Source: Mariannaea sp. PMI_226 (Eukaryota > Ascomycota > Sordariomycetes > Hypocreales > Nectriaceae). From it: a stretch of DNA of 64,000 bases. Shown piece by piece: positions 9,001-62,187 of this stretch. Numbering within the stretch: the stretch's first letter is position 1; each line of letters begins with the position of its first letter. Location of the stretch: contig JANFOG010000002.1 of assembly GCA_024336345.1 (NCBI GenBank), positions 4,092,001-4,156,000 on the forward strand, written 5' to 3'. The notes below the pieces were generated by a model. That model searched no databases. It saw nothing but the letters and a program-made list of their open reading frames with translations, and had not been told where the DNA came from. The translations under genes and the position numbers were made by a program.

Positions 9001-12000
9001 GAGCCTGAGCCGACTTCAGCAGATATCGCCCCTGTCGAGTCTGAGCCCACTTCAGCAGATATCGCTCCTGTTGAGACTGAACCCACTCCGGAAAACGACG
9101 CTCCTGTTGAGCAGGAGGCCGGTGCTGAGGCGGAGGCCGAGCCTGAGACTCCTAAGAAGGGAAAGAAGAACAAGAAAAAGAAGAAGAAGAATGCTCTCTC
9201 CCTGGATGAGCCAGAGAATCGGCCGGAAGGAGGCGAGCCTGCGTCTCAAGATCCCTCTGATGAAGCCAAGATCGCCCCAATGGACGACACCTCTTCCAAT
9301 GGTCCGGAACAACAGGATAAGGTCGTTGAGGAGTCTATTGAAGCCCCGATCAATTCCGAGGAACCTGTGCCTCCAGCGGAACCAGAGGATATCCCTGAAA
9401 TTGCCCCAGAAAGTGATGAGCAGACAAAGCCAGCTGATGTCCAAACCTCCCTAGAAACCCCGCCCGTCCAGGATCTTGCAGATGCTCCGGCTGCCGACAC
9501 TCCTGACGTCTCTGTCCCCGATGCGCCTCCTATCAATGAAAACCCCGCGTCCACCGAGGATCCCGAGCCCCTTCCCACAAAAAAGTCCAAGAAGGAAAAG
9601 AAAAAGAAGAAGAAGAAGGCTGCGCTCGAGGATACCGAGGAGCCCGAGTCGGGGACCGTTGCTCCTCCCGAAGAGACCAGTGCTGAACTTACAACAACCG
9701 AGGAGCCCGTAACACGCAGCGAAGACACGCAGCCCGTGCCCGAGTCGACGGAAACTATTACCACCGAGCCAACACCCGAGGCTGAAGCTGCGACGCCAGC
9801 AGACGAATCTGGAGAGCCGCCAGCATCCAGCCAGGAGCCTGAAGCTAATCCTGAAGACGAGCGGGGTGGGTTCACTCTGAAGATTTCCGAGGACAAAGAG
9901 AACAAGAAGGCTAAAGACATCGATTTTCAAAACCTGCAGGACCCCAAAATTTACCCTCCAACGGAACCGGACCCACAAGTGGGAAAGGAGGACGCCGCAA
10001 GAAGAAACGATGAAGCTGGGAGCCTGGGAACCTTTGAACTGGACAAGGATGTGAAGAAGGAGGAACCTGTTATTGCCCTAGAGGCGTCTGTCGAAACGGA
10101 AGCGAAGCCAGAGCTGGAGAAGCAAGAAATTGTCGATGAATATGCTGGCCTGTCCAAAAAGCAGATTAAGAAGTTGAAGAAGGCGAAAGCCAAAGCTGCC
10201 CTGGAGGCCTCAATCGAGCTGGAGAAACCCAGAGAGCCGGAAGCTACACTTGAGGTACTTCCGGAACCTGCGGTGGAACCCATTGTCGAAACCGAATCGA
10301 CACCTAAGCCTAAGAGTGGCCTTTTGGTTGAGCATGCCACTGAGCTGGATGTCGATTCTGGATCGAAGCTTGAGAATGAGCCCACCTCCGCAGCTGAACC
10401 TGAGATTGTACCTATAGTTGAGCCCGAAACTGAAGCTGAATCAAAGCCCGAAACTGAGACTCAACCTCTGGTCGAACCCGAGATTCGAATGCGCGAGCAA
10501 ACTGTTGCTGAGAGCACGACTGATTTTGACCTCAAACCTGATACTACTAAGCCTGAGCCTGAGCCTGAGCTCTTGGAGCGGAATGTTTCCGATGCTCCTG
10601 GACTAGAACTCGAAGCCGCAGAAAAGTTAATAATGGAGGCTCCTTCTACTAAACATACAGTTGACGATATCCATTCAACCCCTGAAATCGAGGCCACAAC
10701 TGACCCTGCCGAGATTGACATCATAGTGGAATCAACTCCTATAATCGACGAGAAGTCGATTTCTGAGCCTGAGACAGAACCGGTCCAGGACCCCATAGAA
10801 GAGACTTCTTCGGTGAAGGGAAAGGAGAAAGGAATTGAATACGAGACCGAGTTGTCAGCGAATACCGAAGCTCCAGAGGACTTGGAGTCTGTGCTAGCCA
10901 AGGACGTACAGGTCGAGACGCCTACTGAGCCAGTGGCTGTCGAAGCCACGCCAAAGACAACTGACACAGAGCCCGAGAGCACAAAGACATTTCCTGAACT
11001 CGTCGAACATGTAGACAAAACCATTCAGTATGCAGTTGACCCCGCTTACGAGGCTGTTGATCCTGCCTCTGTACACGAGCTCAACCGCATTACGGAAACA
11101 GAGATGGAGGTACAGAGTGTTCCCAGAAGCTTCACCACAAAGGTAGAATCAGTGCCGCTTGGTGAACCAGTCATTGAGGAGAAGATGGTAATTGAACCTG
11201 TGGCTGAAATTATGGCTGGGGCTGAGCCTGTTCCCGCGAATAATGAGGAAGAGGAGGCGATTGCTGAGGTTTTTGAGAACGAGAAGCAAGAAGTGATGAG
11301 GGGCAAAGACGAAGCCTCTGAAGTCAAGCCACTCGCAGAACTTGAGCAACTAAGACAGATAGACATCTCGCCCATTCCGACAGACGTTGCCCTGCCCGAA
11401 AGCAGCCAAGCTACCGAACCTTCAGATCAGACAACTGCTACCTTCCAAGCGACCCCTGAAGAACTTGCGCATCCTGGGAGTTTCTCTGGGCCGGGAACCA
11501 TTACGGTTCCTTCCGAAGCCCAATGCATCTCTGAAACTACCGCCTCTGAGCGAGAAAGTGGAAATGCATCAGAGCCTATACTAAGAGCCGCTTACAGGGA
11601 CCTAACAGACCTAACAACCGTCGCCGACGTCTTCCCTGTCCCTGAAGAGGTCGCTCAACAGGTACCAGAAGCAACCGCCGCTCCCGAGCCTCCTATCTTC
11701 TCTCTAGAAGCCTCTCAACGAGAGTTGGAAATGCAGCCTAATGAAGACTCCGAACTCTCCAAGACAGACGGGAATAGAAATGAGGGGGATAAGGGCAAGG
11801 ACTCCCCTGTGACCACTCAAGATGGGCGAGAGACGCGAAGTGAGCAGGCAGACTTGAGTCCACCCACAATCGAACCGGCTGAGTCTGTTGCTGCCACTGC
11901 CGCGCAGACCCAGGAAATGATCGAAAGTACAGAATCACCCGAACAACGCGAATTTACTGGACCAATTGATCAAGAGAATACTGCCAGCCAGGCCTCCGAA

Positions 12001-15000
12001 GCCGTGCTGTTGACCCAGGATATTGGAATTCTCAAGGACGATATGCCTTCCCTTGAGACCGTGGAGCCCGTTCAAACTGTCGAGAATACTCAGCTTAGCG
12101 AACCCAGCAGGGTTTCTCTAGAAGATCCTAATCCCGCCCATTTCATTGAGCCTATTGAGTCAACTTCAACTCGGTCCCTCGACAACCCCGAATCAGAGAT
12201 GAAACCAAGTTTTGAACCCCATCCTCAGGTTGAGCCGGACTTGGAAGCTTCTCAAGAAGCTGGGCCATCTACTCCCTCCAAGAAAAGTAAGAAAAAGAAG
12301 AAGGGCAAGTCTTCGCGGGACTCTATCGAACAACCTCATCTTCTTCAAGAGCCAGAGATTGCCCCTGAGGTTAGCCAACTTGATTCCGTCGTTTCCCATG
12401 AGCCTTCTGGGCCGGGTCTTGAATCTGCTCTCGAAACAGTACCTGAAATTCCTCACGAATCTAGAGACATTCCTCAGCCAGAGGAGTCGGCACAACCCTT
12501 TGAGACCACTGCTCTTATTGGTGAGAGCATCAACCACGAGCAAGTCAACCCTATCGAAGTCTCTGAAGCGGTTGAGGAAGCGCCCATTCCTGCACAGGAC
12601 ACTTCGATGCAGCCAGAACCTGTGGCCGTTGAAGCTCAAAGTGTGCCTGAACCCATATCTGAGTCTCAGACTGTTGATGATCCATATGCTGGCCTCTCCA
12701 AGAAGGAGAAGAAGAAGAGGAAGAAACAGGAGAAAAAGGCGAAGGAGAATATCGTGAGCCTTGAGGCCACGGATTCTGTCAACGATGAAACGCGCAAGGA
12801 GATTGACCCAGAGCCTATCGACGCCTCGACAGAAGAACCAGCCAAGCCAGAGCCCACTTTTGTCGCACAACAAAGCTCAATGATTGAGATTGAGACAGAG
12901 CCCGAGCAAGTTCCAGAGCGCTTGTCTGAACCATCTCCAATAGTTCAAGCAATTTCGGACCAAACAATTCCTGTTCAAGCGGAGCCTAGAGTCATCGAGG
13001 AGGTACACTCTGAACTGTTTCCATTGGTCGAAGATAGCGTAGAGGTCCAGCGTCTCACTGAAACAGAACCTGAAGGACTCACTGCGGATGTCCTGACGCC
13101 TGTGGCTGAGCGTGACGCACTTGGAGGGGAAAGTCATCATGACGCTGGCCTCTCTCAAGCACAAATGGAGCAACACGTCGATGCTGTTCCCATTCATTCG
13201 AACCAACTACCCGAGGAGGCTTCAGCACTAGCCAGCCAAGAACGAGTTGCTCAATCGGACCCTCAAATTCATCCACCAGCTTTCGAAGAAGCTGGCGAAA
13301 TAATCTCGGAGTCTGGTGTTGAGAACCAGCTGGAGCAAGCAGCTAAGGCATCATCCCCCATCCAGCCTCAAATGGACATCGAAACAGCCCTCGAGACTGA
13401 ACAAAGTCTGCAAGATGACCACCCTGTTTCGTTAGAACCGGCCGTAAGTGCATCTGAGCACGTCCCGGAGCTGGTCCCTCAAGCGTCACTTGACATAGAT
13501 TCGATCATTCCTGAGATCGAAGAACAGGAGCCGGAAGATCCCATCCCTAGCCCAACCCTCTCAAAGAAGGACAAGAAAAAGAAGAAAAAGAAGAAAGACA
13601 AGGCAGGAGCATCGTCCGTCAGCCCCAACATTGAACAAGAGCTTCCGGCGGAGCCTGCAGTCGAGGCTGCCGATTCCTCCGTCAAGAAGGAATCAACAGG
13701 GTTTCTTCAGGTTTTCTCAAATCCTGAATCATCCCATGTGATGAGGGATATTGACGTCTCCGTGGAGCCTGTCCATCTTGACAAAGCAATAAGTGAGCCA
13801 GAGCTAGGTCCAGAGGACATTGCTGAGCCTATCGAGTCGAAGCTGCTTGGTGCCGACTCGGTGTCAACTGAAGTTTATGAGGCTGCAGCATCAACCAATG
13901 TTGAAACCTCTAAGGAGCCATTAGAACCGATGAGAACACTGGAGTTGACTACTGATACCAGCCAAGTCGAAGCCATTCTGGAGTCCACCACAATGCATGC
14001 AGCGGACAGCACATCGAAACCAGATGAGGCTGAGAAGAGTGATTTATCAGTCGCACTTATCGTAAAGGGACCTGGGAGTGACGGGGGCCAGAAAGCTGAA
14101 TCCTCCGCGCAAGTTGAAATGCCTGTTCAATCAGCTGGTCGAATCGACACTCCTCCAACAATGATGCAAGCCAATACTGAAGATGGAACTGACCAGCTGA
14201 TGACCGAAGGCGGAGACCCCAACTTGCAAGGTCGCTCTTTGACTGATTCATTACCGATTGAGCAGGACCAAAAAATAGCTAGAGACTTGACTGAGCTATC
14301 ACACATGGCACAACCCATCAAAGAAGGCCATATTCTCGACGACTCGTCCGTTGCTGCTTTAGAGAGTGGGGTTACTTCTGCCATTGAGCCTGAAACTCTG
14401 GCGGATGAGGAACCAATGAACCGGTCAGAAGCAACTTCTGCTGATATTCAAACGGAAGCTTCGACCTCAAATCACTCCAAGAAGGAAAAGAGGAAGAAAA
14501 AGTCAACAAAGAGCGAGCAGAATATAGCGGGGGAATCTCTTGAGGTAGAGCCTTCCGCAGAGCGAGCCAACGATGTCGTGGCGGAGCCATCAGTCAATGA
14601 GAGCACTCAGCTGATCACTGAGGTTTCTGAAAAGCCCAAAGAGCTCTTTTCTCACCCAGAGCAGCCCCAGGACACCCTCTCGTCACAACTGACTATCCCT
14701 GCTGTCGTTGCTAACGTAGGGGGTAACGACGGGGCATTGGCTGCAGAAGAGGCTGACCCCGTTGTTGAGCAGTTAAAAGCAACTGGACTTTTTCCGAAGC
14801 AGCACATGCAAGAAGTCTCCATTCCGCTAGAGGAACCAACAATGGCAGTTGGTGAAGATCAGAGGGCCATTCCTGTCATCTCAACCAGTGAGCCAGTGGC
14901 CGTAGACCTAGGCCCCGCTGGTGACAGGAAAAAGAAAAAGAAGAAACAAAAGAGCAAACTCACGCAGGATATGCTGGAGGCAGTACCCGAACCGTCTTCA

Positions 15001-18000
15001 GAAGCAGATCTGTCTCTTGACCATGAACCTCCTGCTGTTGACGCTTCAGCCCCTGTCCAAACCGATTCTCCGGACTGTGGTCGAAGGGACCTCTTATATG
15101 TCACCTCAGCGGAGCTCGAATCTTCTCAGACTGAAACCACTCCAGACGCCCTCAGTCAGGAAGTACTTGACCAGGATGCACCTGTGGAAATCTCGCGTGC
15201 CTATGATGCCTCTGCCGAGATCCTCTCGGAAGAAACACCAACTAATCTTGCTTCGGTTGAACCGATTTTAGCTGATGCAGCGGTGATCAGCGAGACCAAA
15301 GAGGAGCTTGAAACTGAGGTGGCTTTGAAACAATCTAGGAAAGAGAAGAAGAGAGCGAAGAAACTTGCCCAGAAAAATGCACTGGTAGGGCCTTCACCTG
15401 TAGAGGGACCATCCACCAGGGAAGATATAGCCCACAGTCAGACAGTCGTGGATAAAACAGCCGACTCCCAAGATATCGACTCAACTGAAAGACCGAAAGA
15501 CTACCTAACTCCTTCCTCCCTAGCCACACTGCCAACATTCGCAACCGCTCAGGATGTCGCTGATAGCGTGGAACTTGTCAAATCTATTGAGGCGTCCGAA
15601 GCACCAGTCCTGTCTGCATCAACAAGTGTACCGGCAGGATTGAGAGCAGAGCCTATACTCGAACCTGCGACCGAGGTACCTCAGAACGAATCTACTCCCA
15701 GTGTAGCCGTTCATACATCTCTTCAATCCACAGACACATTCCATCCAGGGCAAGAAACAATTGGCGCTGTCACCAGACAAGATAGTGAGTGGGGTACATC
15801 TGCTGAGCAGGAGAGTATGTATCACAAGCACCATGATATTTTTGGAACAGCGGCCTTGGGAACCGAGGTTCCATTGCCAGTTCATGAAGAGTCTATTGCT
15901 CAGTCTTCAGGGAGATATCAGGAGCCACTTGAAATGACGACTGAATGCGGTCCGGGTTCCAGCTTCGAACAGATCAGAACCGATGAAATTTCAGAAGCTC
16001 CGCTGTCAACAGAACAATCTCGATCACTAGATGACAAGGATGAAGAATGGGCATTGCCAGTCAAAAGGAAAAGCAAGAAGAGCAAGAAGATAGTGGACGC
16101 TCTAGGTTCCAGCGCAGAGGAACCTTTCCAGCCCACTCTATCTGTAGAGTCACTTGAAGCACCATTTGCTGAGACCGAAGTGAAGCAAATGGATGTACTT
16201 TCTGCAAGTACTGCGGGACAGAAATTTGACGTGCCTCCAGGTAGTACCTCTCTTGGCGCCACAGAGCGTAGCATTTTCGAGCGAGAGCCCGAAAACGCAA
16301 GGGAGCTGGATGTCAATCTCCCTACGCAGGACGAGAGGACTGCAGTGCCTAGCCCAGAGGAACAGAGCCAGCAGCTCATGGCTGTTCAAGAGCAACACTA
16401 CCAGCCCGAAACCATGGATATTAACCCAGAGAGTCCTTCTGTTTCTAAGTCCAAGAGAAAGAAGAAGCGGGCAAAGAGCGATGCAATGCAAGCTCATCAA
16501 CCTACGCCAGAAGTGATTCTCGAGCCAGAGGTTCGAGAAGTCGAAGAGCCAGTCGAGGCTACAAATATTACTTTTCTTGATGTTGAGGATGGCAAGGAGC
16601 TATCACTATCTGAACCTAGGACACCACCCCGATCACGCAACGCAAACCATAGCCCCGTGGCTGTGACGCCAGAGGCTGATAGATTCAAATCGCCACCCAA
16701 AACCAGAGAAGAAACAGCTACAGATAGTGAGGTAGCAGCAGCAGTTGCGGCAGGAGCAGGAGGTATTGCGGCCCTTGCTAGCAGGCTTGGGAGCAGCAAG
16801 AAGCGGTTAAAGGAGAAGCAAGAGCCGAGGGGTGATGCACAGACAAGCAGGGAGGTCAAATTGGATGGCGACGTCTGGCTGCCTAGTGAGAGAAGGGACA
16901 AAGGGAATATGGAGCAAGAGCTCGGTATTAGGAGCGAGTCAAAATCGAGCCATAAAAAGACGCAGTCAAAAGAGGAAGAGAAAGCATTCTGGGGTGCTTC
17001 ATCTCAGTCTAAAGAGTTGGGCGATGAGACTAAGCCCGAGCCTGAAAGCAAACCTCGGAAGAGCAATGAGAAGCCCAAGCTCGCAAGCAAGGGTATGGAG
17101 TCTACGAAGGTGCTTGACAAGCCAGAGCACTATAGGGATTCTACTCAATCAAAGAGCAAGGGCAACGATTCGACATCAAGGTTGTCTAACACAAGTATCG
17201 TACGACGGGACAGCGATGGCATGGAGGAGAGTCCCATCCTAGGGCGCGGCAACATGGAACTGCCCCGAACAGCTCCTCAAGGCCTCCTCACTGGAGGCCC
17301 CAACGTGGAGGAAGCTCGTGGAGGGCTCTTGAAGGAGGAGAGTCGAGTATTGATGCCGCTTACAGAGCTGGGACCTGACCTAGGCGATTTCCGACGACCG
17401 CCTTCCCGTGCTCTGCCACCGGTCCAAGAAATTCCAGAGGCGGAGACGGAAGCTACCAAGTTGGTGCGAATGAGGGCAGATGTCAATCGAGACAGCGGCT
17501 TCGTTGAAGGAGTCCAATCGCGGCCACGGCGGAGAGGTTTGTCACTCAACAAAGACCAGGACCAGCAACGGGACAGCGGCGTTCACATCGGAGATTGGCC
17601 TGACACGCAATCACAAGCAGAAACTAGAGAAATATCAAGCCAAGAACGGGCGGTATTGCAAACACCGGAGCCTGAGCGACGCCTTCGAAGATCACCGCGT
17701 AACACGCCAGTTGTTCGAGATACGCCAGTCCTACGAGAGCCACCAGAACCAGCAGCGACTCCGGAGCCAGAGAAGAGAAAGAAGAAGAAACAATACGGAG
17801 CTCTTGGAACATCTGCGACCCCAGCCGCAGCCACAGACGTCGCTACAGGTGTAGCCGCAGGTGTGGCGGCAGTGGCAGCAGTGGCAGCGGTGGCCGGATT
17901 GCGGTCAGCAACGTCCACGCCATCTCGCAGCGTGTCTGACAACCCGCCTGTTTCTCGCCAATCATCACCGCGGTTTGGAACAGCTCCACGCCGATCCCTG

Positions 18001-19760
18001 TCAAACACCAGCCTCTCACGACGTCGCACGCCCGAGCCACTTAAGTTGCGGCCTGAAAGCCCAGGCATCGCTCGCGAATCAGGCACCCCGACTCCACCGC
18101 TCCGCCGGGTTGACAAACGAATGAGCAGCGATCTGCGGGCGCTTCGTCAACAAAACAACACCACGCCCATTGCGAATGAAGGTCGTGTCCGCGCAAAGGA
18201 CATGGCCGACGTTTATGTAAGTTCACCCTTCCCTCCTTTGCCCTAACCCTTTATAGCGCATCCCCAAAGCTTACCCGTCTCCCTCTTCCACAGGATGGCT
18301 ACGGCGAGGGCCGAATCGGCTCGCCCCGTTCACCCACCCGGCCCCACAGCATGCGCCGTCGACAGAGCATGCAGGTGCTCGAGCTGGAGAACAAGGTCGA
18401 GCAGCTGCTTGCCGAGAATCGCGCCCTGAACGATGCCCGTGCCAATGTCGAGACGAATCTTGCTCAGCGCGCCGCAACTACTCTTTCTGAACGCGATGCT
18501 GAGATTGACTCCCTGAGACAGTCCCTCAAGTTTCTGCAAAATGAGGTTGCTCGCTTGACCGAAGTCAACGACGGCCTGACCAGCGCCAATGCCGAGCTTG
18601 CCAACAAGGACACTTCTCGATATGCTGAATTGGAGACCCGTCACGCGACTACCACCCGTGAACTTGATGCCGCTCGCGGCGCTCATAACCGATTCAGCAC
18701 TAGCCTTCAGGAGAAGGACTCAGAGATAGCCAAGTTGCGCGAAGAACTTGAGGCCGCCAAGGAAAAGATTCGCGAGATGCAACGCCAGATCCTCGAGACC
18801 AAGGCTAGCGACGCTAGCTTCCTCAACATCCGCGACGAGGACCATTTCGACCATCGATGCCAGCAGCTCTGCTCTCATGTTCAGCAATGGGTACTGCGCT
18901 TCAGCAAGTTTTCCGATATGCGCGCTTGCCGGTTGACAAGTGAGATCAATGATGAGAAGACTATCGACCGTTTAGACAACGCCGTCCTCGATGGCTCTGA
19001 TGTGGACGTCTACCTCAGAGACCGTGTCAGGCGACGTGATATTTTCATGTCAATGACAATGAACATGATCTGGGAATTTGTGTTCACCCGGTATCTCTTC
19101 GGCATGGACCGAGAACAGCGACAGAAACTTAAGTCGCTCGAAAAGCTACTAAACGAGGTGGGCCCGCCCGAAGCAGTACGACAATGGCGTGCCGTCACCC
19201 TCACCTTGCTCTGCAGGCGTGATGGTTTCAAGCGCCAGCGCGACCTCGATACCGAGGCCGTTGTCCAAGCCATCTTCCAAACATTATGCAAGATCCTTCC
19301 ACCGCCTTCGAACCTGGAGGATCAGATTCAATCGCAACTTAGACGCGTCATGCGAGAGGCTGTGGCCCTTTCCATCGAGATGCGCACCCAGAAGGCTGAG
19401 TATATGATGCTGCCACCGCTGCAACCCCTTTATGATGCAGATGGCGAACTCGCCGAAACAGTCCAGTTCAACGCTTCCATGATGAGTGAGCGAAGCGGCA
19501 GCGTCACCGCGACCAACGATGAGCTTGAAGCTCAAAAGGCTGTGGTCCGTGTAGTTCTTTTCCCTCTTGTCGTCAAGAAGGGGGATGACGACGGCCGCGG
19601 TGATGAGGAGATTGTAGTGTGTCCCGCGCAGGTGCTGATTGCTCGCACCAAGAACCATCCTTTCGGAGCCGGCAGCTCCGTTGGTGCTCGCAGTCACATC
19701 AGTGTCGTGACCGGGGACATGGCCCAACCAGAGGCCGAGTATATTGAAGGAGGAATCTAA
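1..19760 (+). CDS. lah: Leashin-like (LAH) giant septal-pore/Woronin-body tether, 'involucrin repeat' protein, 5' partial
   Basis: The frame is open from base 1, so the N-terminus lies outside the window. Exon A ends at 18216, a 77-bp intron (18217-18293, GTAAGT...CAG) follows, and exon B is 18294-19760; at least 6560 residues are encoded. The middle is acidic, low-complexity Glu/Pro/Thr/Val sequence broken by about 17 lysine islands and several Ala-rich segments. Exon B encodes about 150 residues of heptad coiled coil, then a roughly 300-residue globular domain. Fungal proteins of this size and plan are annotated 'involucrin repeat protein' and include Neurospora LAH and Aspergillus AoLah, which tether Woronin bodies to the cortex or septal pore; the middle is thought to act as an extensible linker. 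Neurospora makes separate LAH-1 and LAH-2 products from its locus; here one frame runs through. Identity rests on architecture and remembered C-terminal similarity, not alignment. Confidence 0.75.
2440..2790 (+). repeat. Three degenerate copies of an Arg-Ser-Asp-Asp-Glu-Trp motif in lah
   Basis: RSDDEWD, RSDNEWD and RSDDEWE occur near 2452, 2626 and 2767, each within Arg/Ser-rich sequence (RSRSRSRES-like). Spacing is about 140-175 bp. These are among the few tryptophans in this part of the protein, which suggests short linear binding motifs. Confidence 0.7.
7600..7743 (+). repeat. Coding minisatellite, 12-bp unit (Thr-Glu-Ala-Pro) in lah
   Basis: About eleven tandem copies of a 12-bp unit encode (T/S)-(E/I)-A-P type tetrapeptides. 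Central copies (about 7655-7740) are nearly identical at the DNA level, differing mainly by third-base changes such as ccg/cca and gag/gaa, so expansion looks recent. The frame is preserved by the unit length. Confidence 0.9.
8845..9117 (+). repeat. Coding minisatellite, 36-bp unit (12 residues) in lah
   Basis: About seven tandem copies of a 12-residue unit of the form VEPEPTSxDIAP. Units diverge by a few substitutions (E to A, D to N). The array lies between two lysine islands, at 8629 and 9151. Confidence 0.85.
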
Positions 19761-35620: not shown

Positions 35621-37097
35621 ATGTCTGCCTCGCCAACCCAACCCACCCAATCGGTTAAGCGACCCCTCGAGGAAGCATCCTCGCCTTCTCGCGCTACTGA
35701 CCAACCTGATGCCAAGCGACCTGCGCTCGACAAGGTGATCAAGCACGATGACGATGTGGAAGTCCCCGAAGCTCCCGCCGAGCCCGCTGTTGAACCCCAG
35801 GAGCAGAACGGTGATGAGAAGACCAATGGCACTGTCAAGTCCGACCATGATGATACCCCCGCTGCTGACGATGCTTCGGATTCTAAAGCTGTCGCCGCCA
35901 CGGCCGCCGTCTCAACCTCCAATGCAGTCACATCCGCTTCAGCCCACGACGAAACTTCCTGGATCCACATCCGGGCTGTCATCTCTAGCCCAGAGGCGGC
36001 AACTGTGATTGGAAAGGGAGGTGAGAATGTTTCGAACATCAGAAAGCTATCCAACGCCAAGTGCACTGTAAGCGACTATCAGAAGGGCGCCGTAGAGCGC
36101 ATCCTCACTGTCAGTGGAATTGTCGATGCAGTGGCCAAGGTGGGTTTTATTCTTAGATATCCGATCAAGTGATTCGTATCTGCGTACTAATCGTGCCCAG
36201 GCTTTTGGTCTGATCATTCGCACTCTCAACAACGAGCCGCTCAACGAGCCCTCCACCGCGTCATCTAAAACCTATCCCCTCCGGCTCCTCATCCCTCACA
36301 TCCTCATCGGATCTATCATTGGTAAGGGCGGAGCTCGCATTCGTGAGATCCAGGAGGCTTCTGGGGCGCGCCTCAATGCCTCCGACTCCTGTCTCCCCAT
36401 GTCCAGCGAGCGTTCTCTGGTTGTCATGGGCGTTGCTGATGCTGTTCACATTGCCACTTACTACGTTGGCAGCACCCTGCTCGAGCAGTTGAACGACCGA
36501 TTCGGTGGCCCAGCCGCCTCAGCTTATGCTACTCGAAGTGGCGCTCCAGCTGGCTCCATTCCCGGAGGCATGCAGGTTGTACCTTACTGCCCGCAACCCG
36601 CTTCTGGACACTACGGTCGAAGCGAAAACTACGGACGACACAACGAGCGACGCTCCCACCACATGCCACCTGCGCCTTACCCTCAGCAGTACCCCCACGC
36701 GGCACAAGGAAACCCCGTGGTGCCCATGCAATATGGTGCGCAGGGAGGGGCCTATGGTGCTCAGCCCCATATGCAGCCTCATATGGCCCCTCATGTTGGT
36801 CCTCAGCCTCATGGTGCCCCGACTGCGCAACCCATGGCTGGAGCAATGCCCGGAGGTCCCATCACCCAGCAAATCTACATCCCCAACGACATGGTCGGTG
36901 CCATTATTGGCAAGGGTGGACAGAAGATCAACGAGATCCGTCAAATGAGCAACAGCGTCATTAAGATTAACGAGCCACAGGACAATAGCAACGAGCGCCT
37001 GGTTACGATTACCGGAACGGAGGAAGCTAACCGCATGGCGCTCTATATGCTCTATTCTCGACTTGGTGAGGTGCAAAACAGAACCACCGGCAACTAG
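35621..37097 (+). CDS. Triple KH-domain RNA-binding protein (PCBP/hnRNP K, Pbp2/Rnc1 type)
   Basis: Two exons: 35621-36139 and 36201-37097 (61-bp intron); 471 residues. A roughly 110-residue acidic, low-complexity N-terminus precedes KH1 (GKGG about residue 131). KH2 follows (GKGG about 213), then a His/Gln/Pro/Gly-rich linker, and KH3 near the C-terminus (GKGG about 411). Each KH domain has the invariant GxxG loop after a VIGKGG- or IIGKGG-like helix, so all three should bind single-stranded RNA or DNA. Yeast Pbp2 and fission yeast Rnc1 share the three-KH layout and act in mRNA stability and telomere biology. The start follows a 5' region with A-rich context (AAGAAAAATG). Confidence 0.9.
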
Positions 37098-40930: not shown

Positions 40931-42626
40931 ATGGCAGCCGAAACGAATCTTGGCAAACGCCATCCATCTACCACCACAAACACCGTCATTCCTGATGATG
41001 AAGCGAGTTTGCCCACTGAGCTCAACTTGTTTACCCTGAACTGCTGGGGCCTTCTTCACATCTCTGCCCTTCGCACCCATCGACTCGACGAGATTGGCCG
41101 CCAGCTCGCTCTCCTCATACCAGCCCCTGACATTGTCGCTCTCCAAGAGTGCTGGACTCAGGATGACTACACAGCAATCCGTCGCCATACCCGGCAGATC
41201 CTCCCCTATGGGAAATTCTATCACAGTGGTGCTTTCGGAGGTGGTCTCGCCATATTGAGCCGCTGGCCCATTGAAGAAAGCACAATGTTTAAATATCCTC
41301 TCAACGGCCGTCCCACCGCTTTCTGGAGAGGCGACTGGTACGTTGGCAAGGGTGTCGCATGCGCCAAGATTCGATTTGGCGCGAGGAGGAAAGATATCAT
41401 TGAGGTTTTCAACACTCACGTAAGTTCAGCCATATGGACACTCGAGTGTGTCCCGTGCTATACCCACAGACTGCGAGCATTGTTTCTGACCCTGCATCTA
41501 GACTCACGCTCCATATGAGAAAGAGCCCAACGACTCATACCTCTGCCATCGCACTGCTCAGGCGTGGGAGATATCTAAGCTCCTCCGAGGTGCCGCTGAG
41601 CGTGGTCACCTCGTTGTCGCCATGGGCGACTTTAATATGCTTCCTCTCTCCCTTGCCCATCGCCTCATCACTGCCCACGCTCCCGTTCGTGATGTTTGGC
41701 GCGTACTTCATCCGGACAGCTCACTTGGTCCTGCTGACCATCCAGCTGAAATGGCGCGCCGCATGCCTGTCCCTGCGGCCGAATTTAACCTCTTGGAGAA
41801 CGGTGCGACTAGTGATTCCGTATACAACACGTGGCGATGGACCAAGAACCAGCAGAACCTCCTCAAGTCTGGCAAGCATATCGAAGTTGAGCCGGACACA
41901 GTCGATCCTCGCGGCAAGCGTCTCGACTACATTTTTGCATCCACTGGTATTGACCCTGAGGCTCCACCTATGACACCCGGCTGGGTCATCGATACGGCCG
42001 TTGTTGCGATGCATGAGCGACATCCTGACCTTCACGTTTCTCTCTCCGACCACTTTGCCGTCCGCGCGACACTGACCAGACACACCCCCACCCCATTGAC
42101 TCCTCCAGCCCATCCTCGAGCCGAAACTCCTTCGGCCGCTTTGAAATCAGGTGCCTTCTTGGCCAACGACAGCCCGGCTGCCAGTATTCGTTCTATCCCT
42201 AGAGCGGCGCCTGCCGACCCGGATATGCAGCTATATCACAGACAAGAAGACGAAGCTCTTCCAATCTCCGTCTACGATGAAATTCTCACCATGATTCATC
42301 AGTATCACGCCCGCGAGACCAGTCAGCGCTACTGGCGGGGTGTTCATTTTTTCGTTGCCCTGTTCATCACCATTGGCTGCTTGGTCGCTGTTTGGTTCAG
42401 CCCGGCCAACTTCGTTGCCTTCATCCTCATGCTTGTCAGCAGCCTAGGGCTAGCTGCCGGCGTTGTGGATGGCCTTCTCTCACTGCTTTTCTTCTCATGG
42501 GAGATTCGTGGCCTCAAGGAATTCGAGTGGGAGATTCGCAATGCCAAGGCTGTGGCGTCGGGTGACTTGGTGGCCTTGACTGAGAGCGAGGTTGTCTTTA
42601 GTAGTCATCGAAGTTCTAAAAACTAA
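40931..42626 (+). CDS. ISC1: Inositol phosphosphingolipid phospholipase C (neutral sphingomyelinase-like, Isc1)
   Basis: Hydrolyses inositol phosphosphingolipids to ceramides at internal membranes. Two exons: 40931-41419 and 41502-42626 (82-bp intron ending TAG inside the NTHTHAPY region); 537 residues. The endonuclease/exonuclease/phosphatase fold is clear: N-terminal NCWGL, the metal-binding Glu in LQECW (about residue 73), NTH-THAPY, GDFN (about 205-208) and the catalytic SDHF (about 346). Two C-terminal membrane segments (about 445-462 and 466-486) match Isc1, which is anchored this way. An earlier CAG inside the intron would shift the frame, so the TAG acceptor was chosen. Confidence 0.92.
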
Positions 42627-42917: not shown

Positions 42918-45660
42918 TCATACCTTAACCACCGTTCGTTCCTCAATTCCAGGGATGCTGTAACCACCTGGTCTCATTCTGCGCCATTCATACCCCAGAA
43001 AAGCCGCCTTCTTTCTGATATCCATGACATTACTCTTCAGCTCCTGATCTCGTAAGAGAATATCTCTGGGTCGCTTGCGTTCCTTCTGTCCATAGAGCCT
43101 CACAAAATGTTTGAGCATTTCCTTCTCTTCTAATCTCAACCACAAGGTCTCGATCTGGTGGTCGACCTTTCTCAATCCTGTAGAATCGAATGGTAACTCG
43201 ATGAGCTGGATGGCTTGGTCCTGCACGTGTGGCGAGAAGTCACGTAACACTTCCCTCACATCATCTGGAGTCAGGACAGCATCTGTAGGCGACGAGTCGG
43301 ACCAGTCCTCGAGGGTCTCCGACTCATCGAAATAGCGCGTATCATCAGCGCTATAGATGTGTGGGACAAATGGAGGCGTCAAACTCTGCAGTCGATCCCA
43401 GGGCACGTTCTTGAACCACCGATGAGCTTTGATATCTTCTGCATCATCAGGAAACACATGCCGACGAATCGTCTCCGTCGATCTTGCACCGTTAGGCAGG
43501 TTTCGGTCTTTTAAGTGATATCTTCTTGAGCAGAGCCGATGTTCTTTGTCCTGAATAAGTCGGCATATCAAGTCCTTGCACTTATCGCTGACCAGTGGTC
43601 TTTGCGGAAAATAGAACTGCTTTCTGTAGTCCTTTGAGATTGTAAGTCAATGACACATTCACGTCTGCGAGATAAACCGAGTTCACACTCACTACAATGT
43701 TCTGTTTTGTCTGTTTTCGCCCTTCCTCTGATAGAAACGGCGTATGTCCATAGAGACACTCGTACAAGATGATACCGATGCTCTACTAATCGCATCTCCC
43801 GTCGTACTTTTGGCCTAGAACGACCTCGGGTGCCATGTATTGACTGGTTCCGACGACTGAGTTGGCAGCAGTGCGGTTGCTATCTCGATTTCTCCAGCAG
43901 ACCAGCTTTTCAAGATCATCGGCGGCAGCGGACGGGGATTTACCATGCCGCTCTATACTCTGAACGAGGGATTTATACTAATCAAACTGGGTCAGAATAC
44001 TATGCTTGCTTTTCTGATCGGTCTCGTCTCCGTTGACATTGATCCCGAGCTTCCGGACAAGCGAATACCGGTGACAATTGTAGTAAGAGGCGTCATGGGA
44101 CCAGTGGCCATCGAAGGCGAGGCCAAAATCTGATATCTTGAGATGGCCAGATGCGGATATTAGAAAATTGTCTGGCTTGATGTCCCTGTGGATAAACTGG
44201 AGTCGGTGGGCTTCTTCAACGGCAAGAATCATCTCAGCTATGTAGAAGCGTGCAACTGACTCATGAAGGATGTTTTCGCGAATCAAAAGGCCAAGAAAAT
44301 CTCCCCCAGGCATGTATTCCATCACAAGATAGAGGTTGTCGGTGTCTTGAAAGCTGGAAATTAATGGAACTACCCTGGAGCAATCACATCAAATCAGCGT
44401 GACATCAGCCTGTGCGAATGATCAACTCTGCTCTACTAACCAATTTGACCCTTCAGAAGCAACAAGGAAGTCTCTTTCTGCCCTTAAGTGACCCTCTTGG
44501 CAGCTTCGCAGCATTTCCGATTTTCGAATCACCTTCATCGCATACACTTGTCCGGTGAAAGTGTGGCCAGCCACGGGCTTCTCTCGAACAAGACGTACGA
44601 CACCAAAGCTGCCCTTTCCTAATAGTTGGAGCAGCTCGTAGTTTTCAAGAGGTGAGCTGACAGATCCTGTTCTACCTAATTCTAGGTGTTGCGAATTCAT
44701 CGCTCGCAGCTCTCTCAAGTGCCACGTTTCCTGGTTCCTGAAAGATTCACGAATAGCCTCCTTCTGTTCGAGAGTAAGATGAGGGCTGTAATATAGTTGT
44801 GTCTCAAGGTACTGGCGACGGGCGCCACGGGAGTTGGGTTTGTGAAGGAGGTCGTTGAATTTCGTCTCGAAGTAAATTTTGGCAGCTGCAGCGCGTTCTA
44901 CGGTTGCTACGGTGGGTTTTACCATGGAGACGCACGACTCATCAATGGTGCCAAGAACACCGCCTTCCGGGCTTGATCTAGTCCATGGATTTCTCCTGCT
45001 GTGTCGTCTGTTGGAAGCTTCTTTAGTGAGAGGAGAAGCTCTGGAGTCTAATGAGGTCTTCGTTGTCGACTCATCTGCAACCGTCGATAAAAGGGCGCTC
45101 CCACCAGAAGAGGACGCCGTCTCTGAGTCATGGGCTGATGAGGAATAGGCGCTAAGGAATACCTGGGCAGAACTGGCCGTCCCTAGAGGCTGATTTCGAA
45201 GGACAACAGTCGTGTTGGAAGAGAGAGTAGGATGCCTCAGTTGTAGTTTCCTCAGGATTTCCTTCCGAGATAATGCGTTACTATTCTGCATTGGCGAACT
45301 CGCATGATCGTCTTCAACCTGAAGAGGAGACTTGCCCTTCCATAGCCCGGGTGATGGCCTCTCTGGTGCCCACATGACTTCTTCTGAGTTTTGTGAGCCA
45401 GGTGTCCGAGCGGCCGACGTACGTGGGCAGTCTGGCAGTCTCTTGCTGCTGTTGCTACTTCGTCCGATGGCCTTGATAGCTCCCCGGATATCAGACCACA
45501 CCTTGGAGCTGTTCCGACGAAAGCTGAGTATATGGTTGCTGGAAGATACTTTCAGGGGTCGAGGACATGGGAGAGACACTTGGGATTGGGAATCAAGCGA
45601 GTTCCGAGAAAATGCCTGAATCAACTGTTGGCTGCCCTTGGTCAAAAGGGACGGGCCCAT
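42918..45660 (-). CDS. PUK1: PUK1-type AGC/NDR-like protein kinase with in-frame UAG codons (candidate RNA-editing substrate)
   Basis: Three exons: 44441-45660, 43693-44374 and 42918-43631, joined by a 66-bp and a 61-bp intron; 871 codons. About 300 disordered Ser-rich residues precede an NDR-like helical segment, then the kinase domain: GKGSFG (about 347), YAMKVIRK, HRDIKPDN (about 469), DFG (about 488), GTSQYMAPE, and LYECLYGHTPF in subdomain IX, with a C-terminal extension. The frame is intact except for three TAG codons: residue 539 (43980-43978) and a tandem pair at 603-604 (43788-43783). The pair replaces the Trp-Trp of the universal DWWS motif. Fusarium graminearum PUK1 (perithecium unique kinase) carries a tandem UAGUAG in its kinase domain that A-to-I editing turns into UGGUGG during sexual development. 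Without editing the protein would lack subdomains VIII-XI. RIP-mutated pseudogene is the alternative. Confidence 0.85.
43777..43796 (-). promoter_or_regulatory. RNA hairpin presenting the tandem UAG in its loop
   Basis: In the mRNA sense, GAUGC (43796-43792) pairs perfectly with GCAUC (43781-43777), leaving a 10-nt loop, GAUUAGUAGA, that contains both UAG codons. Fungal A-to-I editing sites are reported to prefer hairpin loops and a U just 5' of the edited A; both conditions hold for both adenosines. The pairing is read directly; its use is inference. Confidence 0.6.
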
Positions 45661-46697: not shown

Positions 46698-48410
46698 TTA
46701 CTTGATCTCAAGCACCTTGACGTCGAAGATCAACTGGCTGTTGGCGGGGATACCGGGCATGCCACGCGAGCCATAGGCCAGGTGCGCGGGGATGGTCAAG
46801 CGGCGCTCACCACCAATGGCCATGCCGACGACACCAATGTCCCAACCCTTGATGACCTGGCCCTTGCCGACCTTGAAGGAGAAAGGCTTACCCTTCTTGT
46901 TGGCTGGCGAGAGAGTTAGTTTAAGTAGGCGTCTTTCGTATGGGCAATATTGTCACTCACCATCAAACACCTGGCCGTTCTGAAGCTTGCCAATGTATCG
47001 GACACCAACATTGTCGCCATTCTTGACGGTGCGACCCTTGCCAGCAGTTCGGTCATCAATGGTAACACCCTGGACGACCTTGACGCCGGTGGCGGCCTTG
47101 GCCTGCTTGGCCTTCTCAGTGGAGCCGGTAGGGCCCTGCTCAAGGTTCTTGGCAAACTGCACCTTCTTCTTACTATCCTCGGTAGCAACAGCCTCGCCCT
47201 TGTTGTTCTTGAGCTTCTTCTGCTGCTTCTTGGACTCCTTGGCATCATCCTTGGAGATGAGCTCGTCAAGTCCCTCAGCAGCCTCCTCAGCGGCGCGCTT
47301 GTTCTTGCCCTTCTTCACAGGGACCAACTTGGGAGCCTCCTCCTCATCAGACTCGATCTCAGCGACGCGGGGGTTCTCAAGACCGTCAAGTTCGTCGCTC
47401 TCCTCATCGCTCTCATCTTCGCCCATAGCGTACTCGAGCTCATCAGGGGAGAGGTCATAATCGTCCTCATCATCCTCATCATCCTCCTCGTCATCGTCCA
47501 TGATGTAGTTACCAGTCAGGTAAACAGTATGGGTACCGGTGACAACGAAGAACACCTTCTCACCGTGGTTGACAGTGATGTCAAGGGGCTGCTGGTAGTT
47601 CTAAGAATAGGTTAGCAAACAGAAAGCGGCGACGTGTCACTGTCGGGGGGTGGTCGAGCATACTCTCTCAGTGTCCAGAGTGCAGATGACAAAGTTCTCG
47701 AGATCAGCGCCCTCCTCAGAATCATCATCAGAATCCTCCTCCTCCTCGTCGGACTCCTCCTCGGTAGCCTTGCCCTTGCCCTTAGCCTTGCCATTGGGCT
47801 TAGCGTCCTCCATATCCTCGTCATCATCAGACTCATCCTGAGTAGCGTCCATGAGCTTCTTGATGGCAGCAGCCTGCTTCTGCTTCTTAGACTTGGCAGG
47901 GTCGCTGGGACCGCCATTGGCCTCCTCATCGGACTCCTCGTCGGACTCGGAGGCGGCCAGGAGAGCCTTCATGTACTCATCATCAATCTCATCATCCTCG
48001 TCATCGTCGAGGCCGGGGAAGGCGCGCTTGACTAGTCGGAGGGTAGAACGAGGGACAGAGGGGACGTTGCCTTCAGCATCGGCCTCGGGCTCCTCGGTGG
48101 GATCGACAGCAGCCATAGTAATGCGGAACTGCGGGTTTCAAAAGTTAGTCGACTGAAGCGTTTGGCGGATGCGTCCATGGTGGCGCGCAACGAGTAATGC
48201 AGGCAAAAACATGGATGGAACGGGATGTAGGAACATCCTGAGGCATCGCAAAGCATCTGAAATGGCATCATATTGCTAGCAAAGCCAGAAGAGATGGGAG
48301 GATGAGAGGCGGAAAAATCTTACAGAGGCAGGGAACTCCATGGCGGCAGGAATGAGGATCTCGCCAGGCGGGACCTCGAGGCCGTAAACAGGACCAGGAA
48401 CAGCAGACAT
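46698..48410 (-). CDS. FPR4: Nucleolar FKBP-type peptidyl-prolyl isomerase (Fpr3/Fpr4 type)
   Basis: Four exons: 48324-48410, 47664-48128, 46961-47600 and 46698-46903; 465 residues. The first intron is long for this window (195 bp). The N-terminus (start YGLEVPPGE) is the nucleoplasmin-like domain of Fpr3/Fpr4. Two long Asp/Glu/Ser tracts and Lys-rich patches follow, then the FKBP domain in the last 110 residues ([52 protein letters not shown]), with the catalytic aromatic residues retained. This class is a histone chaperone and proline isomerase acting on histone H3 tails and rDNA chromatin. Because exon 1 lies upstream of a plausible internal ATG (48116), the longer start restores the nucleoplasmin fold and is preferred. 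Confidence 0.9.
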
Positions 48411-60690: not shown

Positions 60691-62187
60691 ATGTCCGACG
60701 TAACCACCGCTTTAACGTCGACCTGCTCCGGTCGAACCCAGGCTGGAAAGGCCGCCGCCACGGCCTCCGGTTCCGATGCCCGAGCCGGACCTGATCAGGC
60801 CCGCAAACGCCGACATTCTTTCTTCATCCCCCGACGTCGCTCCATTGTCGGATCCATTATGGACGGGGAGGAAGGTCTACTACTCAAGGTAGACCTATTC
60901 CTCTCCGAGCTGGAACGTCGCCTTGACTTTATTGAAAGCTATGCCGACCTGAGCAAGGATTCGAGCATATCACGTGCATTCTCTACTCTGCAGGCCGTCC
61001 GTACAAGATGTTCTCAAGCCTCCGAGGAGGTCCTTGGTGCTGGCCGACGACGTCTACATATCATGGTTGAAACCCTCGAGACTAGATACCACGATGGTCT
61101 TGAAGCTGCTGAGTCTCTTAATGAGAAGGCCCGTGTCGGGGTCGAGCTGTTGGAGGAGATGTTGACTGAATTTGAGACTCGGGCTTATAAGTTGCGCGAG
61201 CAGGGACTTGCTAATGCTGCCACTGCTGCTGAGGCTTTCATGGATGAAGGTCGACGAGTTGCCAATGAAGGGATTGAAAGAGCCATGCGCGCCGCCTTGT
61301 CCCTTGAGGAGCATATCCAGCAAGCCATTGTTCAGGCCAAGGAAGCCCGACTGATCCATTACGACGACTTGCCAATGCCTTGGAGAAACAATCCTCATAT
61401 CCTAAAGGGATACCGCTTTACCGAATCAAAGCTCGAATGTGTTTTGTCAGCTTTCAACGTTTCCAACGAACTGGTTAATATCTGGTCTCACTTCCTTGGT
61501 CTCATCCTGGTCCTAGCCATTGCCTTATGGTTCTACCCGAGCAGCGCCAATTTCTCTCTCAGCTCCAACACTGACGTCTTTGTAGCTGCCGTCTTTTTTG
61601 TGACGGCTTGCCTGACCCTCGTGTGCTCGACGGTCTGGCACACTATGAATGCGGTTGCTGATGTTGATGCAATCTCTACATTTGCTTGTGTTGATTACAC
61701 TGGCATCTCCTTGCTCATTGCTGCGTCTATCATGACCACCGAGTACACCGCCTTCTATTGCGACCCAGTCAGCAGATGGGTCTATATGGGGTTGACAGCC
61801 ATGCTTGGACTCGGTGGTGTCATCCTCCCTTGGCATCCTCGTTTCAACGGTGCCGATATGGCTTGGGCCCGTGTTGCTTTCTATGTCGGATTGGCATTGA
61901 CCGGATTCATGCCTATTGTCCAGCTGTGGTGGACCCATGGGCCTGATTTCGTTTACAACTTCTACTCGCCTATTTCCAAGTCGATGCTGGTCTACTTTGG
62001 TGGCTCGATCGTCTATGCCAGCAAGATCCCAGAGCGTTGGTGTCCGGGTATGTTTGATTATGTAGGAGGCAGCCATAACCTTTGGCATGCAGCGGTGCTT
62101 GGAGGTATCTTGTTCCACTATACAGCCATGCAAGCGTTCTTTGCCAACGCTTTCGGCCGTGCTGAGAGTGGCTGCCCTGGCTACTGA
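60691..62187 (+). CDS. IZH3: Izh3-type haemolysin-III/PAQR seven-membrane-span protein
   Basis: Single exon, 498 residues. An N-terminal cytosolic region of about 240 residues contains coiled coil, as in yeast Izh3 but not in shorter Izh proteins. Seven membrane segments follow, from about residue 255. PAQR motifs are present: NELVNIWSH (Glu, Asn, His), the STVWHTM motif with its conserved Ser and His, and SHNLWH (HxxxH) near the end; these form the zinc-binding, ceramidase-like site. Yeast Izh proteins affect zinc and sterol homeostasis. Length and single exon agree with the family. The Met at 60691 is in good context (CATCATG) and precedes a basic region. Confidence 0.93.
   Translation: MSDVTTALTSTCSGRTQAGKAAATASGSDARAGPDQARKRRHSFFIPRRRSIVGSIMDGEEGLLLKVDLFLSELERRLDFIESYADLSKDSSISRAFSTLQAVRTRCSQASEEVLGAGRRRLHIMVETLETRYHDGLEAAESLNEKARVGVELLEEMLTEFETRAYKLREQGLANAATAAEAFMDEGRRVANEGIERAMRAALSLEEHIQQAIVQAKEARLIHYDDLPMPWRNNPHILKGYRFTESKLECVLSAFNVSNELVNIWSHFLGLILVLAIALWFYPSSANFSLSSNTDVFVAAVFFVTACLTLVCSTVWHTMNAVADVDAISTFACVDYTGISLLIAASIMTTEYTAFYCDPVSRWVYMGLTAMLGLGGVILPWHPRFNGADMAWARVAFYVGLALTGFMPIVQLWWTHGPDFVYNFYSPISKSMLVYFGGSIVYASKIPERWCPGMFDYVGGSHNLWHAAVLGGILFHYTAMQAFFANAFGRAESGCPGY

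Follow-up and report, generated by a model that had tools for sequence, protein, structure and literature searches.

Three in-frame TAG codons in the PUK1-type kinase gene of Mariannaea sp. PMI_226, candidate targets of A-to-I mRNA editing

Background

Fungal mRNA editing independent of ADAR was first recognised in the gene PUK1. Expression almost confined to perithecia is a mark of the PUK1/stk-21 group. In perithecia of Fusarium graminearum, A1831 and A1834 of the PUK1 transcript are edited at 91% and 99%, respectively (PMC11156358). The two Trp codons of the DWW motif vary among fungi. According to PMC4817773, both are stops in F. graminearum, the first only in Neurospora crassa, the second only in Fusarium verticillioides, and Magnaporthe oryzae and Claviceps paspali are described as having a stop at neither codon of the pair. 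For puk1, such sites have been suggested to arise neutrally (PMC5381528). The mRNA A-to-I enzyme of F. graminearum is Tad2-Tad3 together with Ame1, and Met-Val in place of Lys-Asn at residues 500-501 (F. graminearum Ame1 numbering), described as an innovation of Sordariomycetes, is needed for the binding of Ame1 to Tad3 (PMC11087585). Placed in laboratory yeast or E. coli, the Tad2-Tad3-Ame1 set is likewise able to edit (PMC11087585). A sequence-only reading of the locus described here had named editing that does not use ADAR, and in this it was right. Fungal A-to-I sites are reported to prefer U at -1, purines at +1 and +3, and a position in a hairpin loop (PMC11156358; PMC9600606).

The locus resides in a stretch of 64,000 nucleotides (hereafter the window) from Mariannaea sp. 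PMI_226, an ascomycete of the Nectriaceae (GenBank assembly GCA_024336345.1, contig JANFOG010000002.1, positions 4,092,001 to 4,156,000). For the genus, a draft genome of Mariannaea elegans has also been published (PMC9258550). Positions are those of the window unless a contig is named.

Results

Gene structure and in-frame stops

The kinase gene runs from 45660 to 42918 on the minus strand, and comprises three exons, two introns and 871 codons before the terminal TGA (Table 1). The letters at 43783-43788 are CTACTA on the plus strand and TAGTAG on the minus strand, and read in frame D-stop-stop-S-I-G. The tandem stop at the kinase DWWS motif, to which the earlier reading had drawn attention, is real, and corresponds to codons 603-604. 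The same reading had described an intact frame of 871 codons. Codon number and absence of frameshifts hold, but a third in-frame TAG had been overlooked at codon 539, in the context Q-F-D-stop-Y-K-S, within an insert of the activation segment. Beyond the three TAGs, no further stop interrupts the frame. The 267 codons following the tandem are free of stops, a result obtained in 0/2000 nucleotide shuffles (mean 14.5 stops per shuffle), and GC3 is 0.54 at residues 605-871 and 0.52-0.54 in the preceding segments.

Table 1. Kinase gene, predicted RNA hairpins and neighbouring genes in the window
Feature	Position	Strand	Remarks
Exon 1, putative PUK1 orthologue	44441..45660	-	ATG at 45660; open frame, homologous along whole length
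Intron 1, 66 nt, GTTAGT...CAG	44375..44440	-	Excision leaves N-W-V-V-P in a single frame
Exon 2, contains all three in-frame TAGs	43693..44374	-	
In-frame TAG, codon 539	43978..43980	-	Trp column; would-be edited A at 43979
Tandem TAGTAG, codons 603-604	43783..43788	-	Trp-Trp of kinase subdomain IX DWWS; would-be edited A's at 43787 and 43784
Intron 2, 61 nt, GTGAGT...AAG	43632..43692	-	
Exon 3, kinase C-lobe and C-terminal extension	42918..43631	-	Stop TGA at 42920-42918
Predicted RNA hairpin around codon 539	43955..44000	-	Codon-539 A is first base of 6-nt loop; longer stem
Predicted 5-bp hairpin GATGC-loop-GCATC	43777..43796	-	Tandem inside its 10-nt loop
Piece of FKBP-type prolyl isomerase gene	46701..46904	-	PF00254, E 2.2e-24
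Endonuclease/exonuclease/phosphatase-family gene	40931..42626	+	PF03372 in both exons

Each of the three in-frame stops is a TAG, with neither TAA nor TGA among them, and occupies a Trp column. The chance that three random single-change stops are all TGG-to-TAG is 4.8e-5 at equal rates, 6.5e-4 if transitions are four times as frequent, and 4.1e-3 if only G:C-to-A:T changes are admitted, figures which are post hoc and treat as separate codons 603 and 604, probably one inherited pair. As the two were probably inherited together, codon 539 is the sole independent event for this calculation, and its own chance is 0.036, 0.087 and 0.16 under the three schemes, respectively. Bearing on the hypothesis of an alternative genetic code, TAG appears to terminate other frames of the window, as for example the KH-domain ORF at 36114-37097.

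Orthology and neighbourhood

The product carries a protein kinase domain (PF00069, beginning at residue 341, E 1.5e-51), and the solved kinases most similar to it in sequence, STK38 (E 2e-70) and CBK1 (E 2e-69), belong to the NDR group. In NCBIfam nothing but bacterial or archaeal models was hit, below cut-off. In the homologue search 7993 candidates were scored, within a length range of 0.55 to 1.75 times the query. Among the best 120 of 2523 homologues, the nearest are those of Thelonectria olida, 70% identical along 99% of the query, and of Neonectria punicea, 76% identical along 71%. None of these 120 proteins is the product of this gene itself, since the top identity is 76%; its own annotated model, if any, plausibly lies outside the searched length range, or is absent. 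In a gene tree built from 55 of the 120 homologues, which includes F. culmorum (P0015) and has no F. graminearum or N. crassa protein among its rows, the kinase is sister to Thelonectria (support 0.94) within Nectriaceae, and its branch is the shorter of the two. The 17 Nectriaceae rows of the tree all cluster with it (support 0.93), and the placement agrees with the species tree.

A piece of an FKBP gene lies next to the kinase gene, and the two are fused in gene models of Stachybotrys chartarum (P0011) and Fusarium longipes (P0040), an indication that the neighbourhood is conserved; the FKBP neighbour is an orthology criterion adopted for this analysis, not a published one. Homology, gene tree and neighbourhood support the notion, already put forward from the sequence, of a PUK1 orthologue, here the PUK1/stk-21 gene of Mariannaea sp. 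PMI_226. The plus-strand gene on the other side of the kinase presumably resembles ISC1-type sphingolipid phospholipase C. As for the C-terminal end of the kinase, residues 845-850 (42984-43001, minus strand) form the motif F-L-G-Y-E-W. The Glu is replaced by Thr in 9/12 homologues compared, by Ala in Thelonectria and by Asp in Diaporthe, and one model diverges. Should these residues represent the hydrophobic motif of NDR kinases, the Glu might mimic phosphorylation.

Stop positions in relatives

Relatives were surveyed as annotated proteins only (the 120 listed homologues of 2523), and assigned to lineages by genus name. Residues 603-604 are both missing in 25/25 Nectriaceae models. Among other Hypocreales (n=43), 37 models are without both residues, three have the second W only, two WW and one CW; among other Sordariomycetes (n=22), 14 have WW, seven the second W only, and one is without both. 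WW is found in 26/26 Leotiomycetes and in 4/4 unnamed homologues. In the 68 Hypocreales models the gap share, given as 12-residue means, is 0-7% along residues 339-578 and 13% at 579-590, rises to 96-97% at residues 597-603, and drops to 0.37-0.53 at 605-623. These gaps suggest that gene models dodge stops; TAGs of relatives are read from such gaps, and a gap fits either one or both codons being stops. The pattern at 597-603 resembles the false intron which automated annotation gave to F. graminearum PUK1, where the annotated third intron is unspliced in cDNA (PMC4817773; PMC7306014). In the same way, annotation of the CHE1 gene dodges a stop in several species (PMC11169179). The sequence-only reading had opposed a fixed edited site to a stop allele of a few strains, with TGGTGG in all orthologues. 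The gene models, being annotated proteins and nothing else, do not suggest that all orthologues have TGGTGG. At odds with the published state of C. paspali, all 12 Claviceps models listed, C. paspali not being among them, are without the pair. WW is kept in two of the 68 Hypocreales models, those of Clonostachys (P0024) and Geosmithia (P0094), where stops were perhaps never gained, or have been lost.

At codon 539 the picture is different. Its column is W in 23/25 Nectriaceae (L in the other two), in 26/43 other Hypocreales and in 20/22 other Sordariomycetes, in 0/26 Leotiomycetes and in 1/4 unnamed homologues. There is no gap at this column in any of the 68 Hypocreales models, so that an ordinary codon is to be expected in relatives, and the TAG is probably private to the Mariannaea lineage. 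The residues that flank codon 539, before and after it, are conserved, which speaks against an intron there.

Real introns excising the stops would conform to the annotation of many relatives, the gene models of which put introns at 603-604. Such an explanation is highly improbable. GTRNGT donors are found in 0/35 of the GT-AG pairs (40-140 nt) spanning codon 539, and in 0/54 of those spanning codon 603; by contrast, the true intron 2 begins with a donor of this type (GTGAGT), and intron 1 (GTTAGT) matches at 5/6 positions. Among in-frame candidates whose donor matches at 5/6 positions or better, none spans codon 539 and one spans codon 603. The latter is without a CTRAY branch site, and its excision would remove 12 near-invariant residues. 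The in-frame 42-nt stretch of codons 591-604, skipped by the models of some relatives, includes by eye the invariant Asp of subdomain IX. Introns across the stops were rejected on the donor scan and on the published cDNA of F. graminearum (PMC4817773; PMC7306014).

Conservation beyond the stops

Columns were called near-invariant at an identity of >=97% with at least 60 rows. All of them are retained both in the kinase before codon 539 (88/88) and at residues 605-871 (35/35), and relatives scored alike keep about 34-36 of 34-36 after the stops. Kinase conservation past the stops resembles that of relatives. Private changes of this gene and of three sisters, counted with four outgroups, are given in Table 2. 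At residues 701-871 this gene has more changes than Thelonectria and Neonectria with every outgroup, and is not consistently higher than Dactylonectria; at residues 605-700 Thelonectria has as many or more. At most, these counts would indicate slightly faster change towards the C-terminus, unlike the decay of a dead gene.

Table 2. Private changes, this gene v sister, with each of four outgroups
Residues	Sister	P0005	P0006	P0009	P0002
605-871	Thelonectria	11 v 14	13 v 10	10 v 11	14 v 10
605-871	Neonectria	19 v 22	25 v 14	17 v 18	29 v 13
605-871	Dactylonectria	18 v 21	19 v 17	17 v 19	20 v 19
701-871	Thelonectria	8 v 7	10 v 3	6 v 4	7 v 3
701-871	Neonectria	14 v 11	19 v 6	12 v 11	17 v 10
701-871	Dactylonectria	10 v 11	13 v 6	11 v 10	11 v 12
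605-700	Thelonectria	3 v 7	3 v 7	4 v 7	7 v 7

The same counts bear on the idea that the gene is a recent pseudogene, that the stops are the outcome of decay, and that the full kinase is never made. The presence of three stops and the slight surplus of private changes over Thelonectria at residues 701-871 go in this direction, and so does the failure to recognise a mating-type gene in the genome, although control genomes were silent too. In the search for MAT1-1-1 and MAT1-1-2, PF04769 gave no match at E 0.001 and PF17043 none at E 1; at E 10 a single PF04769 match was found, under the curated score, and introns split such domains. No HMG-box match in the genome was recognised as MAT1-2-1, a domain that introns can likewise split. 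Yet 871 codons free of frameshifts and of other stops, the full set of near-invariant columns, the absence of an overall excess over Thelonectria at residues 605-871, and models skipping the same place throughout Hypocreales, all argue against decay, and make a pseudogene quite improbable.

Sequence and hairpin context

The adenosines of the three TAGs have U at -1 and G at +1, as dictated by UAG itself. The remaining test is position +3, which is A, A and G for codons 539, 603 and 604, respectively. All three (3/3) lie in predicted hairpin loops in 61-nt folds, against 8/24 UAG and 46/98 UA in the coding sequence (both counts including the three sites); codons 603 and 604 occupy one loop, and their placements are not independent. 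The adenosine of codon 539 has a sampled probability of 0.994 of being in a hairpin loop, and its fold has a z of +0.58 at 31 nt, -2.71 at 61 nt (-12.9 kcal/mol) and -1.77 at 101 nt. The corresponding probabilities are 0.76 and 0.84 for the adenosines of the tandem, the z of which is -2.20 at 30 nt (-6.2 kcal/mol), -0.31 at 60 nt and -0.16 at 100 nt. The octamer GATTAGTA is common to codons 539 and 603. Some features count against editing. The tandem hairpin in the 60- and 100-nt folds, and the codon-539 hairpin in the 31-nt fold, are no stabler than shuffles, and unfavoured bases, called on the preferences reported in PMC9600606, are found at -2, +2 and +4 of codon 604, and at +4 of codon 539.

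It might be argued that the tandem is edited as in PUK1, and that the TAG at codon 539 reflects an error of sequencing or assembly, or else the private allele of one isolate. A single base is involved, no Hypocreales model has a gap at that position, and the assembly derives from one isolate. Such a coincidence is unlikely, as the change at codon 539 produces a TAG on a Trp column, in a hairpin loop, within the same octamer found at codon 603; a random stop is TGG-to-TAG with a chance of 0.036 to 0.16, and the assembly is contiguous (25 contigs).

Editing machinery in the genome

Profile searches of the genome revealed six DUF726 matches at three places. The first, at C1:1159878-1160926, is an AME1 orthologue; the 629-aa protein P0241 is 96% identical to a rough splice of this locus, and has Met-Val at the column of residues 500-501 of F. 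culmorum. Met-Val predominates among the aligned homologues (120 of 193 found), which split into 110 MV, 9 IV and 1 LV. Another DUF726 locus of the genome has by eye HN at this column. In the third, at C12:3241284-3242359, a TAG lies inside the match at a point where the reading frame shifts, and is therefore probably intronic. A search for deaminase domains gave seven matches, with Tad2 and Tad3 candidates pooled.

As to other genes with published stops, no stop was found in the three matched pieces of the DNA methylase family (RID), a result that is uninformative about the published stop. Matches to the kinase profile having TAG as their only kind of internal stop were found, among other places, at C24:1204635-1205489, C5:660266-661156, C22:305978-306550, C11:372433-372864 and C1:3146172-3146510. 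Introns are the likely cause, and the matches are candidates for more edited stops; some stops within the 137 kinase matches of the genome are intronic, and the figure was not taken as a count.

Two further frames of the window may be mentioned. A single open frame of 6072 codons spans 28-18246 (plus strand), the first 2000 residues of which match no Pfam family at E 0.001. At 60691-62187 (plus strand) an IZH3/ADIPOR-like membrane receptor of 498 aa is encoded in one open frame, with 86% identity to proteins of Neonectria ditissima and Dactylonectria macrodidyma.

Discussion

The data are best accommodated by assuming that in the sexual stage of Mariannaea the Tad2-Tad3-Ame1 system converts three UAGs, located in two hairpins, to yield full Puk1, a conclusion that we regard as probable. 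The gene would encode the Puk1/STK-21 orthologue, an NDR-type kinase of ascospore formation. Vegetative mRNA would give at most a fragment of 538 residues ending in the activation segment, provided with catalytic Lys, HRD and DFG, devoid of APE and C-lobe (motifs assigned by eye), and plausibly inactive. In fruiting bodies Ame1 would direct the tRNA deaminase Tad2-Tad3 onto mRNA, A would become I at codons 539, 603 and 604, and the edited UAGs, read as UGG Trp, would restore the kinase of 871 residues. Editing itself, its stage, the enzyme involved in Mariannaea and the inactivity of the fragment are what we infer from the features described. The dependence of the tandem on editing, claimed by the sequence-only reading, draws indirect support from the conserved sequence beyond the stops, from the bases and hairpins around the sites, from models which dodge the stops and from the AME1 orthologue; the claim has to be widened, because the third stop also needs editing.

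Ribosomal read-through, or a suppressor tRNA, would likewise yield the full protein from this DNA. However, a tandem of stops together with a third one should leave a very small yield, and editing is what the orthologues of F. graminearum, F. verticillioides and N. crassa undergo (PMC4817773). Read-through in place of editing is thus barely credible, and editing of all three codons remains the preferred explanation.

The stop in the DWW pair would be the older one, since the region is skipped in all 25 Nectriaceae models, and that at codon 539 the newer. The third stop probably originated as a TGG to TAG change in a gene which already needed editing, and hence at low cost. If sites are edited independently, the yield of full-length kinase is the product of three editing levels, and codon 539 should be highly edited for useful kinase to be made. 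A further, distant and correctable stop provides a natural test of a neutral ratchet versus retention to silence the kinase outside sexual tissue. The sequence is compatible both with neutral extra stops and with tighter silencing. The editing of a tandem stop in PUK1 is already known, and the third stop appears to be new: in the literature surveyed, neither a third stop in any PUK1 orthologue nor RNA editing in Mariannaea or Thelonectria is reported. Under the interpretation proposed, mRNA editing should occur in this Mariannaea fungus, known here from its genome only, and with it a sexual stage should exist.

Human STK38/NDR1 and yeast CBK1, whose solved kinase domains come closest in sequence, are not orthologues of the sexual-stage gene, and to our knowledge no such stops occur in them. 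A change of UAG to UGG restores the full protein in the premature-stop-correction (PSC) genes AMD1, FgAMA1, FgRID, FgBUD14 and CHE1 of F. graminearum (PMC11156358), which are different genes. Closer to the case described are stk-21 of N. crassa (NCU03242) and FVEG_01191 of F. verticillioides, in which the orthologous site is edited in perithecia; unlike Mariannaea, one TAG of the pair only is present in each (PMC4817773). The closest counterpart is PUK1 of F. graminearum (FGRRES_01058), an orthologous kinase with a tandem TAGTAG in the kinase domain. The Mariannaea gene, known here from DNA alone, differs by the extra in-frame TAG, which lies 64 codons upstream within the insert of the activation segment. 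It seems somewhat favoured, on balance, that PUK1 is triple-locked in the Mariannaea lineage, with three UAGs in two separate hairpins, all to be edited in the same mRNA, and full kinase made only where nearly every site is edited. With the fungi having one or two stops, it would then form a natural series in which a gene already dependent on editing gathers more correctable stops like a ratchet, always with UAG at Trp.
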